Shown: one piece after another, positions 7,660 to 44,028 of the stretch
How the letters are laid out: each line of letters opens with the position of its first letter
Numbering within the stretch: the stretch's first letter is position 1
NCBI GenBank assembly: GCA_019112965.1
Contig: DXIH01000152.1
Location: forward strand, 54,073-118,072
From: Candidatus Sphingomonas excrementigallinarum
GTDB taxonomy: Bacteria; Pseudomonadota; Alphaproteobacteria; Sphingomonadales; Sphingomonadaceae
Direction: 5' to 3'
Length of the DNA stretch: 64,000 bases
Program-made: the position numbers and the translations under genes
Notes under the pieces: generated by a model
Told to the model about the DNA's origin: nothing
Databases searched by the model: none
What the model saw: only the letters and a program-made list of their open reading frames with translations

Positions 7660-7736
7660 CGGGGAGTGGCGCAGTCTGGTAGCGCGCCTGCTTTGGGAGC
7701 AGGATGTCGCAGGTTCGAATCCTGTCTCCCCGACCA
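7660..7736 (+). tRNA. tRNA-Pro (anticodon UGG), CCA encoded
   Basis: A 77-nt cloverleaf. The acceptor stem is CGGGGAG (7660-7666) with CTCCCCG (7726-7732), followed by discriminator A and a genomic CCA. The anticodon arm CCTGC-TTTGGGA-GCAGG gives anticodon TGG. The T loop GGTTCGAATCC is intact. The 3' half serves as the attachment site of the island that follows. Confidence 0.97.
7717..7730 (+). other. Left attachment site (tRNA-Pro 3' end)
   Basis: GAATCCTGTCTCCC inside the T arm and acceptor stem of tRNA-Pro, identical to 44015-44028. Because the tRNA is complete on this side, this copy has restored the gene after integration. Confidence 0.8.
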
Positions 7737-7743
7737 TCCGCAT

Positions 7744-7771
7744 CTAAGTCGTTGATTTCACGTCGCTTAAC
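7744..7771 (+). repeat. Island-terminal inverted repeat, left copy
   Basis: Reads CTAAGTC, two bases, TGATTT, two bases, CGTCG, CTTAAC. The reverse complement of 43963-43993 has the same blocks in the same order with a 3-base insertion (CGTCGTCG). Such repeats next to the crossover site are expected to bind the integrase or an excision factor. Confidence 0.75.
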
Positions 7772-7788
7772 TGGCGATCGGGAACCGT

Positions 7789-7820
7789 TGTACCCACGGC
7801 TGTACCCATCGCTGTACCCA
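7789..7820 (+). repeat. Three TGTACCCA boxes, 12-bp spacing (candidate integrase arm sites)
   Basis: Perfect TGTACCCA copies at 7789, 7801 and 7813, just upstream of the integrase gene. Two similar boxes with the same 12-bp step occur at 43917 and 43929 near the other end. Arm-type binding is inferred from number, spacing and place. Confidence 0.65.
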
Positions 7821-7834
7821 TTGGGGGTGACGGA

Positions 7835-9824
7835 ATGGGATTACGGAACCTGCGGCTGCGCGGCGGCAGCTATCATTGGCGACGCAAGATCACGGTGGCG
7901 GGCACGCACGTGCCCCTGTGCTTTTCCCTTCGAACGGGAAATTATAAACATGCGCGGTGTATGGCCGATCGTCTGAATGTGGCGGTCGAGGGGGTGCGCA
8001 TGGCCTATGGCCAATCGACGGGGATGAGGCCGGATCAACTGAAGAAGGTGTTCAGCGATGCGCTGCGCTGGCAGTTGCAGCGCATCCTGGAAGATCAGGC
8101 AGGCACCACCGCGCCGTCCGATCATCACGCGTCGATCAATAGCCTCTATGCTGAGGCCTGGGGCTTTCTGGGCCGCCGCGGGGTCGGCGCGCAATGGACG
8201 CTGGACGAGCATGACCGCCTGATCGCGGCCGGCTGGTCGCCAGCGCGCGCGAAGCAGGTCGCCGATCTGGTGTTCGAGTTCCAGAACAACGACCCCGTCT
8301 CCAAGACCCAGATCGACAACTACGTCACCGCGTTCGGCATCATGCCGACGCAGGACAATGTCGCCCGTATGGGCAAGACGATCTGCGCCGCGCGGGCAGC
8401 CGCCTGCCGAGAAGCGACGGCGCTGCTGCCCGACACCGAAGACGAGACGGCCGCATGGGTCGACGACGCGTTGGCGGACGACGGGCCATTCGCCTTCGAG
8501 CAGATCGCGCCACAAGGCACGCGCCCTGCACCTACAGAACCACTCTCGGATGACATCGTCACGCCGGCGCAGCCCCCGGCACCGTCGTCAAAGCCCGAGC
8601 GACCAAAACAATGCATCGTCGATGCGGCTGAGGACTGCATCGCCGCGTACAGCAAGGAGGGCGGCTGGGACACGGATTCGATCAAGCAGGTGCGGACCGC
8701 CATCCGCCTGTTCGATCACGCTTGCGGCGGCGACGCCTTCATCGAGGATCTGGACCAATCCCATGTTCGCGCCTTCACGACCCTATGTCGGGCATTGCCG
8801 AACCGCTGGGGCCGTACCCGCGAGGAACAGGCGGGTGGCATCGCCGCCAGCCTGAAGCGGGCGGAGGGCATGGACCCCGCGCAGATCGGCATCAGTCAGG
8901 TCACCATCAACAAGCATCTGACGTGGGTCGCTGCCGTCCTGGCCCATGCGGCGGGCGAAGAGGATGACCCCGAGGCGCATCGACCGGACAAGCCGCTGTC
9001 CTTCAAGGTTGCGCGGGCCGGCCTTGGCAAATCCGATCGCAAGCAGCGCAAGCGTGACCGGGACAAGCGGGCCAATTGGACCAAGCAGGAAGTCGCCACG
9101 CTGTTGTCCGCGCCGATCTGGACCGGGTGCGCCGATATCGGCGGACGTTTCAAACCCGGAACCGAAATCTTCCACGACGCCTGGTACTGGCTGCCGTTGA
9201 TGCTCCCACTTTATGGCGGTCGCAGTTCCAGAGCTTGCCGGGCTGGGCTTGGCCGAGGTGTTCGAACAAGACCCGATCCCCTATTTTCTGATCCAATATA
9301 CCGAGGATCGGTCGCTCAAGAACATCCAGTCGATTCGACGGCTGCCGATCCATCCCGAACTGATCCGCTTGGGCTTTATCGACTATGTGAAGGCGATGCG
9401 CGCCGCAGGATCGACCATGCTGTTTCCAGAGATGCAGTCGCCGAACTCCACGACATTCGCCGGGACGTTCTACAAGTCCGTGTTCAGGCCGTTGCGGGAC
9501 TGGGCTTTCCCCGAAGGCACGTCATGGCGGCATCGCGTCGGCGGGGCATGGAAGGACAAGGACGTCCACAGCTTCCGCGGCTTGGCAACGACGACCATGA
9601 AAGGGCGTGTTCCCAGCGAAGTGCGGTGCGACATCTTCGGCCACGAGGGCGAGACGGAGACCGCAAGGACCTATGACGAGGAAGCCGAGCTTTCTCTCAA
9701 GCTTGATGCCCTGAAGTTGCTGACGCCGCTGACCGCGCACATCCCTGCGACGCTCCCCATTCGGCTAAGGCCGCCCGAGCGACGGCAGCATCGTACGCGA
9801 GCCGCGAAGGTGCGGTTAAAGTGA
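7835..9824 (+). pseudogene. Tyrosine site-specific integrase, frameshifted
   Basis: The N-terminal part (frame of 7835) begins MGLRNLRLRGGSYHWRRKI, the short N-terminal module of tRNA-targeting phage-type integrases, and runs through the core-binding region to LPLMLPLYGGRSS near 9230. The remainder continues in the +1 frame as ELAGLGLAEVFEQD to the stop at 9824. Read together, the catalytic set is complete: Arg in YGGRSSEL, HSFR, the His of FGHEG and Tyr in ARTYDEE. One extra base close to 9230 (CGC AGT TCC A GAG) accounts for the break. The joined protein would be about 660 residues. This is either a decayed gene that locks the island in place or a sequencing error. Its position next to the tRNA identifies it as the island integrase. 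Confidence 0.88.
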
Positions 9825-9836
9825 GTGTCGGCATAT

Positions 9837-9908
9837 CGGACGAGCTGCCATATTCGGGCAAGACCGCTATTATTTCCGAGCGGGTGTCCGAATAGGCTGG
9901 CTCGTCCG
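9837..9908. repeat. Long nested inverted repeat between convergent genes
   Basis: Arms 9837-9857 and 9888-9908 share CGGACGAGC at the outer end and TATTCGG at the inner end as inverted repeats (16 of 21 positions plus a mismatched middle). The 30-nt loop can itself pair (ACCGCT with AGCGGGT). It lies between the stop of the integrase and the stop of the minus-strand gene, where a bidirectional terminator would fit, though there is no T run. Confidence 0.6.
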
Positions 9909-9937
9909 TATAGGGTGATAGACCTCGACGCGATCCG

Positions 9938-42521: not shown

Positions 42522-42581
42522 CGAGAATATTGCCGAGGTGGTGCGCGTCCAATTATGGTCACGTATCTAGGTAGGAATCAG

Positions 42582-43631
42582 ATGACCAAGCTCCCCCTTC
42601 CCTCACGAACCAGACAAAAGAAGTCAGAGGCTGCATCGTTCGCCATACTACAATACAAGCTGGGCGATCTCGGCATTTTTCGCGGGCAGACGGAGAACGA
42701 CTATGGCATCGACGTTGACTTCGAACTTGAGATTGCCGGAAATGTCACGGGCAAAAGCGTCAAGATTCAAGTTAAGTCGTCCGAGAACCTAAAGCTGCGC
42801 GCTGATGGTGCTCCCTCCGTTGGCGGGATCAAGCAATCCACCCTCAACTACTGGTGTCAAATCTCCTTTCGCACCAGCGTCATGGCCTACGCTGTCGATC
42901 TGGCATCCGAGAAAATCTACGTGACCGGCGATCTCTTTTGGCAGGCCACCAAGCTATTGGATGGTGGCGAATCGACCAAGTCGATCACCTTCCTTCCCGA
43001 AGGGAAAAACAATCTAGCGCTTGCGACGGTCTTGACGGTCTTACACGCCTGGAAACCGACCATTGGAGAGGTCGTCGCTGCGCACACCACCGCGCTGCGT
43101 CGACTGAAAGCCTTCCTCGAAATCTACGTCGACGCTTTCCACTACGACGCGGGCACGCCGATCGAGAACATGGCGGACTTCTCCGACCTGATCGACGTCT
43201 GCCGCATCCTCATGTGGAAGGACGGGGAGAAGCTCTTCGACGACAAGCAGGACCGATCCAACTGGCAGAGCGTGGCGTATTGGAAGGCCAAGTCGGAAGC
43301 CGATGGGTGGGACGGCCTTTCGTGCATAGCCGCGCAACCGATCCTATCGGCGCTGCTTCCCGCGCTGGTGCGCAAACTGCAAACCCTCCGGGCAACAGTG
43401 CTGGCAGGCAAATACTTTTGGGCGCACGAAAAGCCGAGCTACCTGGCGCTTGTATACGAAACTACCCTGCCTGCAGAAGCGGACGAGGATACGTTGCATC
43501 GCTGGGGTTATCACTTCGACCAGCAGGCGCAAGTTGTGGTTGGGTCCGGTGAGTATTTCGCCGCCGCGGCGAGGATATCAACCGCGAAGCCGAGGAAGGC
43601 GAGAGCGAAGCGCAAAACGGAGGCTGAGTAG
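42582..43631 (+). CDS. DUF4365 protein (restriction-like N-terminal domain)
   Basis: A 349-residue protein. Residues 10-130 are DUF4365: ENDYGIDVDFELEI followed by VKIQVKSSE, which reads as the D44...E...Q63-x-K65 core of a PD-(D/E)xK-like nuclease. The C-terminal 200 residues are helical and not recognised, ending in a basic tail (KPRKARAKRKTEAE). AGGA lies six bases before ATG 42582; ATG 42555 is possible. Last gene of the defence cluster before the right end of the island. Confidence 0.75.
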   Translation: MTKLPLPSRTRQKKSEAASFAILQYKLGDLGIFRGQTENDYGIDVDFELEIAGNVTGKSVKIQVKSSENLKLRADGAPSVGGIKQSTLNYWCQISFRTSVMAYAVDLASEKIYVTGDLFWQATKLLDGGESTKSITFLPEGKNNLALATVLTVLHAWKPTIGEVVAAHTTALRRLKAFLEIYVDAFHYDAGTPIENMADFSDLIDVCRILMWKDGEKLFDDKQDRSNWQSVAYWKAKSEADGWDGLSCIAAQPILSALLPALVRKLQTLRATVLAGKYFWAHEKPSYLALVYETTLPAEADEDTLHRWGYHFDQQAQVVVGSGEYFAAAARISTAKPRKARAKRKTEAE

Positions 43632-43811
43632 ACGCCCCTACGCACGCTACGCTGACATTGAGGCCGGCGTTAGGTCAGCCGTGTCGTGGAGAAGCACTCT
43701 CCCATCCTCCCGCTGGAGCTGCATTCCCTAAACTCGATCGTTCTTGGGAAGGCTGGCAGAGCAGTGGGCAGGGCCGAAGTTCAGCACCGCCCACGCAGAC
43801 AATATGAACGG

Positions 43812-43851
43812 ATGGCAGAAGGTGGCGAGCCGAAAAGCGTCCGCGAGTGAC
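43812..43851 (+). repeat. 40-bp dispersed repeat, copy 1
   Basis: Matches 63961-64000 at 34 of 40 positions, with both beginning ATGGCAGAAGGTG; weaker similarity extends 40-50 bp upstream. Nature unknown. Confidence 0.7.
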
Positions 43852-43916
43852 CGGATCTGGGTCACTCTGCATCGCCTTCGGTTTCCCGCTGCGTGGTGTT
43901 CGATCACTTGTATACC

Positions 43917-43936
43917 TGTACCCCCTGTTGTACCCA
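43917..43936 (+). repeat. Two TGTACCC boxes, 12-bp spacing (right arm sites)
   Basis: TGTACCCC at 43917 and TGTACCCA at 43929, the same motif and step as the three boxes near the integrase. Confidence 0.6.
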
Positions 43937-43962
43937 TCACGGTGCAACTCGCCGACAGGCGG

Positions 43963-43993
43963 GTTAAGCGACGACGCAAAATCAGTGACTTAG
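43963..43993 (-). repeat. Island-terminal inverted repeat, right copy
   Basis: Its reverse complement begins CTAAGTC and ends CTTAAC and shares 24 of 28 aligned positions with 7744-7771, apart from a 3-base insertion. Confidence 0.75.
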
Positions 43994-44014
43994 CGCGCGG
44001 TAAAATTAGGTCAG

Positions 44015-44028
44015 GAATCCTGTCTCCC
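44015..44028 (+). other. Right attachment site
   Basis: GAATCCTGTCTCCC, identical to the 3' part of tRNA-Pro at 7717-7730 and in the same orientation. The sequence diverges on the next base, which fixes the right edge of the shared core. Confidence 0.8.

Follow-up and report, generated by a model that had tools for sequence, protein, structure and literature searches.

A tRNA-Pro island of Sphingomonas, very probably integrase-only, with metabolic-repair cargo and a variable terminal slot

What kind of element occupies the proline tRNA gene in a 64,000-nt stretch of Candidatus Sphingomonas excrementigallinarum (contig DXIH01000152.1), and where precisely does it begin and end? For this stretch, referred to as the window and providing the numbering of all positions given here, the initial annotation had proposed a 36.3-kb genomic island in tRNA-Pro with both attachment (att) sites visible, and the proposal was borne out by an island in Sphingomonas parapaucimobilis YK209 (NZ_CP155750.1, L036/L037; hereafter SP) which ends at the same right base. 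The element is very probably an integrase-only tRNA-Pro genomic island, composed of a backbone, a cargo for metabolism and repair and a terminal slot, the latter often occupied by defence genes. This reading draws on the target, on both ends, which recur in many genomes, on empty sites and tandem copies, and on the mosaic of modules and the variation of the slot. In the following, W denotes the window copy, and G or L followed by a number labels genomes and loci, respectively.

The integration target is an intact tRNA-Pro gene (anticodon TGG; 7660..7736, plus strand; ARAGORN, Rfam), and elsewhere in its own genome the tRNA-Pro region found partial matches only (78-85%). The 20-bp tRNA 3' end GAATCCTGTCTCCCCGACCA (7717..7736, plus strand) forms the attL core, and its part GAATCCTGTCTCCC occurs in exactly two copies in the window, at 7717-7730 and at 44015-44028. 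The second copy (plus strand) is the attR core, comprising 14 of the 20 bp, with the last 6 bp (CGACCA) of most other right ends gone; together, tRNA-Pro and the 14-bp repeat enclose the 36.3-kb island. The exact repeat thus stands as initially annotated, but its placement 27 bp before a phosphoesterase gene does not, as it ends 26 bp from an ORF on the minus strand (44055-45200) and so lies behind the stop codon. That a 14-mer should match here by chance had been called unlikely, in agreement with ~5e-4 exact matches expected for one 14-mer on two strands of 64 kb (own arithmetic) and with the independent SP end; at up to two mismatches, GAATCCTGTCTCCC was found at 3 places in the window as compared to 0.45 expected, a count reached in 2 of 100 shuffles. 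A chance repeat was rejected, the SP homology stopping at 44028 and right ends aligning across relatives.

In SP the same island resides in the same tRNA-Pro, behind the same nucleoside deaminase gene. Aligned by blastn, homology between window and SP runs from 15 to 36775, is interrupted by a gap, resumes at 43805 and ends exactly where the repeat ends, at 44028; the individual pieces show 91-97% identity, with small indels near 22.1 and 36.1 kb. The far repeat of SP is the full 20-bp tRNA end, as compared to 14 bp in the window. Inside both island ends, TGTACCC repeats and an inverted CGTCGCTTAA/TTAAGCGACG pair were identified, so that the terminal repeats invoked initially do back up the ends: the left end (7737..7834) carries TGTACCC repeats and the CGTCGCTTAA half, and the right end (43805..44014) combines TGTACCC sites, the TTAAGCGACG half and a conserved box preceding the core, as revealed by an alignment of 21 right ends including those of the window and SP. 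The TGTACCC repeats are probably integrase arm sites. The left end is conserved in W, SP, G111, G052, G025, G138 and G121, persists as a remnant in G065 and is absent in G108 and G068. The latter two are empty sites with an uninterrupted tRNA-Pro, no island and flanks other than that of the window. In G121 a right end is followed by ATATCCAAAAAACCGCAGTTTTCTGCCGTTTTTTGATGA, and near-identical sequence directly follows tRNA-Pro in the empty G068. The island edges are considered well fixed, because SP homology stops at 44028, the G121 right end matches the G068 empty site and G108 provides a further empty site.

The ends recur well beyond these two genomes. At up to two mismatches the right-end box was found at 25 places in 21 of 295 genus genomes, as compared to 2 of 295 for a reversed-pattern control; 20 of the 25 places (16 of 295 genomes) were judged to carry the arm region, the five without it (G232, G248, G264, G131, G276) having been dropped by eye. 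A contig scan yielded 20 integrase loci, among them loci of Novosphingobium and Sphingobium, and in every one the core CCTGTCTCCCCGACCA precedes the integrase by 95-110 bp (18 exact, two with one mismatch). This core ends a tRNA-Pro gene in 16 of the 20 loci, two of them with anticodon CGG; the other four lack a full tRNA, as expected for a position behind another island. Tandem islands were indeed found, as the right ends in G151 and G289 run directly into the left end of another island, and G111 carries a second right end 27 kb past the first.

What lies between these ends? The initially annotated succession of unknown, metabolic, repair (AlkZ, DinB, AlkB) and finally defence-like genes agrees with Pfam. 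The integrase-proximal part (9938..17941) consists mostly of unknown genes without a Pfam match at E<=0.01, the exception being an S8 subtilisin-like peptidase (12012..14033, plus strand; PF00082), which is kept beside the integrase with 63-90% identity in SP, G111, G052 and G025 and 88% in G194. It is followed by a 222-aa protein (14165..14833, plus strand; no Pfam match) with 33-88% identity in SP, G111, G052 and G025. Integrase, peptidase and 222-aa protein form a backbone common to W and these four genomes; in G194 integrase and peptidase match, the 222-aa gene does not. The joint position of the latter two (12012-14833) behind the integrase in all five suggests a role in the island itself. 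The metabolic and repair cargo (17992..36615; Pfam) encodes hydrolases, AlkZ, a metallophosphoesterase, aldo/keto reductases, regulators, GNATs, MFS, PhzF, DJ-1, ADH, DinB and AlkB. This cargo (17.9-36.6 kb) is common to SP, G052 and, less four genes, G151, with a DNA identity to the window of 91.6-93.6%, and its 3' part also occurs in G138, G194 and G111. When W is compared with G052, identity amounts to 93.8% for gyrA, 91.6% for the cargo and 69.1% for the backbone; the backbone reaches 68-69% in both G052 and G111, the G111 cargo 88.5%. In G151, cargo identity is 92.0% over 15.8 kb as compared to 84.0% for gyrA and 90.5% for lepA, so the cargo is more alike than either housekeeping gene, which indicates its horizontal transfer between W and G151. 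The backbone, the metabolic cargo and the slot at the end each have a history of their own.

The terminal slot (36776..43804, 7.0 kb; no SP homology between 36775 and 43805) follows alkB and carries six genes, which according to Pfam and PADLOC encode DUF3800, DUF2026, an AbiGi-like protein, a 708-aa HATPase protein, Abi_C (AbiJ-like) and DUF4365. None of the six was found in 27 other regions (tblastn, E<=1e-10, 40% coverage). The G+C content of the slot is ~60-62% as compared to 65-70% in the cargo, and other window stretches, e.g., 50-53 kb, are also near 62%. Matches to AbiGi (PADLOC, 5.4e-9), AbiJ (PADLOC, 5e-5) and Abi_C (Pfam, 7.2e-18) mark putative defence genes. Six islands (W, SP, G138, G194, G052 and G151) share the dinB-alkB cargo, and the contents of their slots differ. 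In SP the slot holds annotated QatC and QatD, beside them a hypothetical gene and a KAP NTPase, which are read as QatB and QatA, and one further hypothetical gene. Type I restriction-modification occupies two of the six slots, namely G138 (HsdM, HsdR) and G194 (HATPase protein, HsdM, HsdS, HsdR). The G052 slot spans ~13.5 kb, the one gene examined being a TonB receptor, and the G151 slot is empty, with ~260 bp from alkB to the core. Predicted defence systems are clear in the SP, G138 and G194 slots.

For a broader survey, genes of at least 60 aa within 10.5 kb of a right end were selected, using the stretch from alkB to the right end for W, SP, G138, G194 and G151 and skipping genes that cross locus borders in G111a and G052; PADLOC was run on 138 of the 147 proteins so selected, nine of G025b having been left out. 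At E<=1e-10, 325 model families matched the 138 right-end proteins, five matched 115 chromosomal proteins and one matched 28 other window-island proteins, these counts referring to model families of a redundant library and not to proteins; the window slot proteins gave none this low, their best match having an E-value of 5.4e-9. Genes checked singly elsewhere were, e.g., an OLD-like/UvrD pair at right end G280a and a DNA methylase at G111a. As far as predicted gene content tells, the terminal slot is variable and often, but not always, defensive. Full-length relatives of the 708-aa HATPase protein (39472-41598, HSP90-like N-terminus) are encoded on plasmids of S. morindae (90%), Rhizobium etli (78%) and Sinorhizobium (59%), with a UvrD helicase and a restriction endonuclease, a DUF3883 gene or SIR2/DarT genes as neighbours. 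This protein may be an undescribed defence protein.

To which class does such an element belong? A recombinase starting 98 bp past tRNA-Pro (ATG at 7835, as initially annotated), a direct copy of the tRNA 3' end at the far side (14 bp long in the window and 20 bp in SP) and the empty sites in G068 and G108 identify a tRNA-integrated island. When 39 island ORFs were scanned against Pfam (E<=0.01), neither relaxase and mating-pair or conjugation families nor virion families (capsid, terminase, portal, packaging) were found, and PHROGs gave one weak tail match (E 0.015) on 8 window-island proteins. Integrative conjugative and mobilizable elements use a tRNA target and a tyrosine integrase and duplicate the tRNA 3' end. 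The window island is alike in all three respects and differs by lacking a relaxase or mating-pair Pfam match in its 39 ORFs. The family is therefore called new and its kind known, since it fits tRNA-integrated islands, among them integrase-only defence islands, that have already been described; among the literature matches listed, no title or abstract opening dealt with this tRNA-Pro island family. In the excerpts considered of a survey of E. coli hotspots, 18 of 41 hotspots are in tRNA loci, and the islands resemble the present one in combining an integrase and defence cargo with no further known mobility genes (PMC10121019). As compared to these excerpts, the Sphingomonas family differs by another host, a divergent integrase, a large shared metabolic-repair cargo and by having one slot, placed at the end with the far attachment site. 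The Pseudomonas genomic islands PAPI, PAGI and LESGI are presented, in the portion considered of PMC12629846, as modular defence hotspots and are alike in that defence genes are gathered at fixed places of conserved islands; unlike those of the Sphingomonas family, the hotspots in that portion sit in PAPI, PAGI and LESGI islands (PMC12629846).

The integrase itself is a divergent family member, as Pfam gave nothing but sub-threshold DUF6538 on the window and SP proteins and no recombinase came up in a profile search of solved structures. An intact relative matched a PHROG integrase (E 4.6e-12, residues 269-631). R463, H578xxR581, H603 and Y613 are invariant in sets of 8 and of 13 integrases, K495 does not vary in the smaller set and hardly in the larger one, and these are presumably the tyrosine-recombinase residues. 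A fold search with a poor predicted structure (mean pLDDT 57) returned no hit at E<=0.001, a phage integrase N-terminal domain (3lys) having E 3.4. The gene is intact in SP, G121, G138, G025, G052 and G111. Integrase matches at E<=1e-20 occur in 16 of 151 genus genomes, the own genome included, and several are fragments only. A 13-kb island in G064 (L141:5462-18500) has kept tRNA-Pro and both ends, its integrase being a 143-aa fragment. Integrase decay seems frequent in the island family.

On this basis a sequence of events can be suggested. In tRNA-Pro(TGG) and in the island alike the core equals the tRNA 3' end, and the tyrosine integrase would recombine the two copies, the TGTACCC sites presumably acting as arm sites. 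A complete tRNA would thereby be restored next to the integrase, and the far end would be left with a second copy of the tRNA 3' end. Slots would probably change via homologous recombination between tandem or incoming islands that share the dinB-alkB cargo and right ends. As no conjugation or virion gene was found, transfer would have to rely on helpers, transduction or DNA uptake. A wider picture is put forward tentatively, and is rather doubtful at present: integrase-only units across the Sphingomonadaceae, arranged in tandem at one proline tRNA, would swap terminal defence cassettes via the shared dinB-alkB cargo and right ends, and the tRNA would thereby serve as a point at which changing immunity is loaded, with no need of conjugation or virion genes. 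With islands bounded to the base, sites free of an island and, on shared cargo, several slots that are filled and one that is empty (G151), the family offers a testable case for the gain and loss of immune systems by integrase-only defence islands, the mobilisation of which is called unclear in the excerpts considered of PMC10121019.

Several observations weigh against the reading as an integrase-only island with a frequently defensive slot. The cargo lies slightly below gyrA in SP, G138, G194, G052 and G111 (88.5-93.6% vs 93.8-95.4%), which fits vertical descent or old transfer, and the case for horizontal transfer is built on G151 and two housekeeping genes. Right ends without defence genes exist (the G151 slot holds nothing), and among the right-end genes checked singly are those for a GGDEF/EAL protein (G121a), TonB receptors (G064, G052, G289) and acyl-CoA dehydrogenase/thiolase (G111b), defence genes being possible among the remainder. 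The window integrase (7835..9676, plus strand) is in frame for its N-terminal and core-binding parts and loses the frame at about codon 465, just past GGRSS and at its catalytic arginine; the rest of the catalytic part, with the K, HxxR, H and Y motifs, lies in an overlapping frame (9213..9824, plus strand). On the right, the sequences flanking W, SP, G052, G111 and the empty G108 have next to nothing in common, apart from one match of 616 bp between SP and G052, and as they are so dissimilar, a same-flank empty site was obtained only for G121 and, loosely, for the second right end of G111, each as compared to G068. The right junction of the window, finally, is without CGACCA and its flank is not native. 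The window integrase is, by its reading frame, probably inactive unless the draft is in error, and since those of relatives are intact, the window copy is probably immobile; with frameshift and rearranged flank taken together, the island can probably not leave its site unless helped in trans by another copy.

The junction deserves closer consideration. The stretch 44029..45200 (minus strand), joining the island to a phosphoesterase block, is not counted as island, and this block is located upstream of the tRNA in two relatives: its counterpart to 44061-50813 is found at 587768-594529 in SP, ~176 kb upstream of tRNA-Pro, and the phosphoesterase gene lies ~151 kb upstream in G065. The phosphoesterase gene as native right flank was rejected on these positions. 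The order of gyrA and lepA to the left of the tRNA does not differ between the own genome, SP and G065, and the phosphoesterase gene has one match in the own genome. The initially predicted empty site, in which tRNA-Pro would be followed directly by the phosphoesterase gene, was not found, the two empty sites seen having other flanks. Because the block resides elsewhere in relatives and the core is without 6 bp, a rearrangement or misjoin must touch the attR core; its other side was sought in the own genome with the SP right flank (5.5 kb) and with G065 sequence left of the phosphoesterase gene (3.5 kb), which gave weak or paralogue-like matches only. That 44028/44029 is an assembly misjoin and not a rearrangement is possible, considering a draft of 199 contigs and the flanking block being placed elsewhere in two relatives, and is nevertheless held to be the lesser possibility, as G111, G025, G121 and G280 likewise have a cut core with another flank, because of which real events of this kind seem to occur. 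The same cut core GTCT|TCTTATC stands at a right end in G111, G025 and G121 (L127, L135, L136). Behind it, G111 has a second unit with an end carrying acyl-CoA dehydrogenase and thiolase genes, and G025 has genes of similar length and order.

It was further considered whether two or more tandem islands were collapsed by deletion, such that the left and right ends of the window stem from different elements. The tandem copies in G151 and G289, the second right end in G111 and the four of 20 integrases behind a core without full tRNA all agree with such a history, yet SP carries the same left part, cargo and right end as one unit, so that a collapse, if any, would predate the split of window and SP, and the present boundaries are unchanged by it; this explanation is thought unlikely. 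Beyond the G052 right end, a second copy of the island metallophosphoesterase (89% DNA identity) was observed at L099:7704-8583, perhaps a remnant of a former tandem island.

That mobility is confined to 7.7-17.9 kb and the defence end, with the metabolic genes at 18-36.6 kb as ordinary chromosome trapped between two elements, is very improbable: the cargo resembles the chromosome in G+C content and a piece of it stands beside tRNA-Pro without an integrase in G065, but it lies within the same ends in SP, G052 and partly G194 and G111, directly abuts the right end in G151, was not found in the 40 kb around the G108 empty site to which that search was confined, and is 92% identical to G151, where gyrA has 84%. 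Cargo genes without an integrase had been named initially as speaking against an island, and this situation occurs in part in G065, where the left-end remnant is joined to a cargo part corresponding to W 20873-22053 with no integrase between, the contig ending there; the arrangement is read here as decay of an island.

The SP record, NZ_CP155750.1, is labelled as an 853-kb plasmid of S. parapaucimobilis YK209 and carries gyrA, purF, rpsI, rplM and lepA (L036, L037, L158-L162). The plasmid label looks doubtful, and because of these genes the record was treated as chromosomal.

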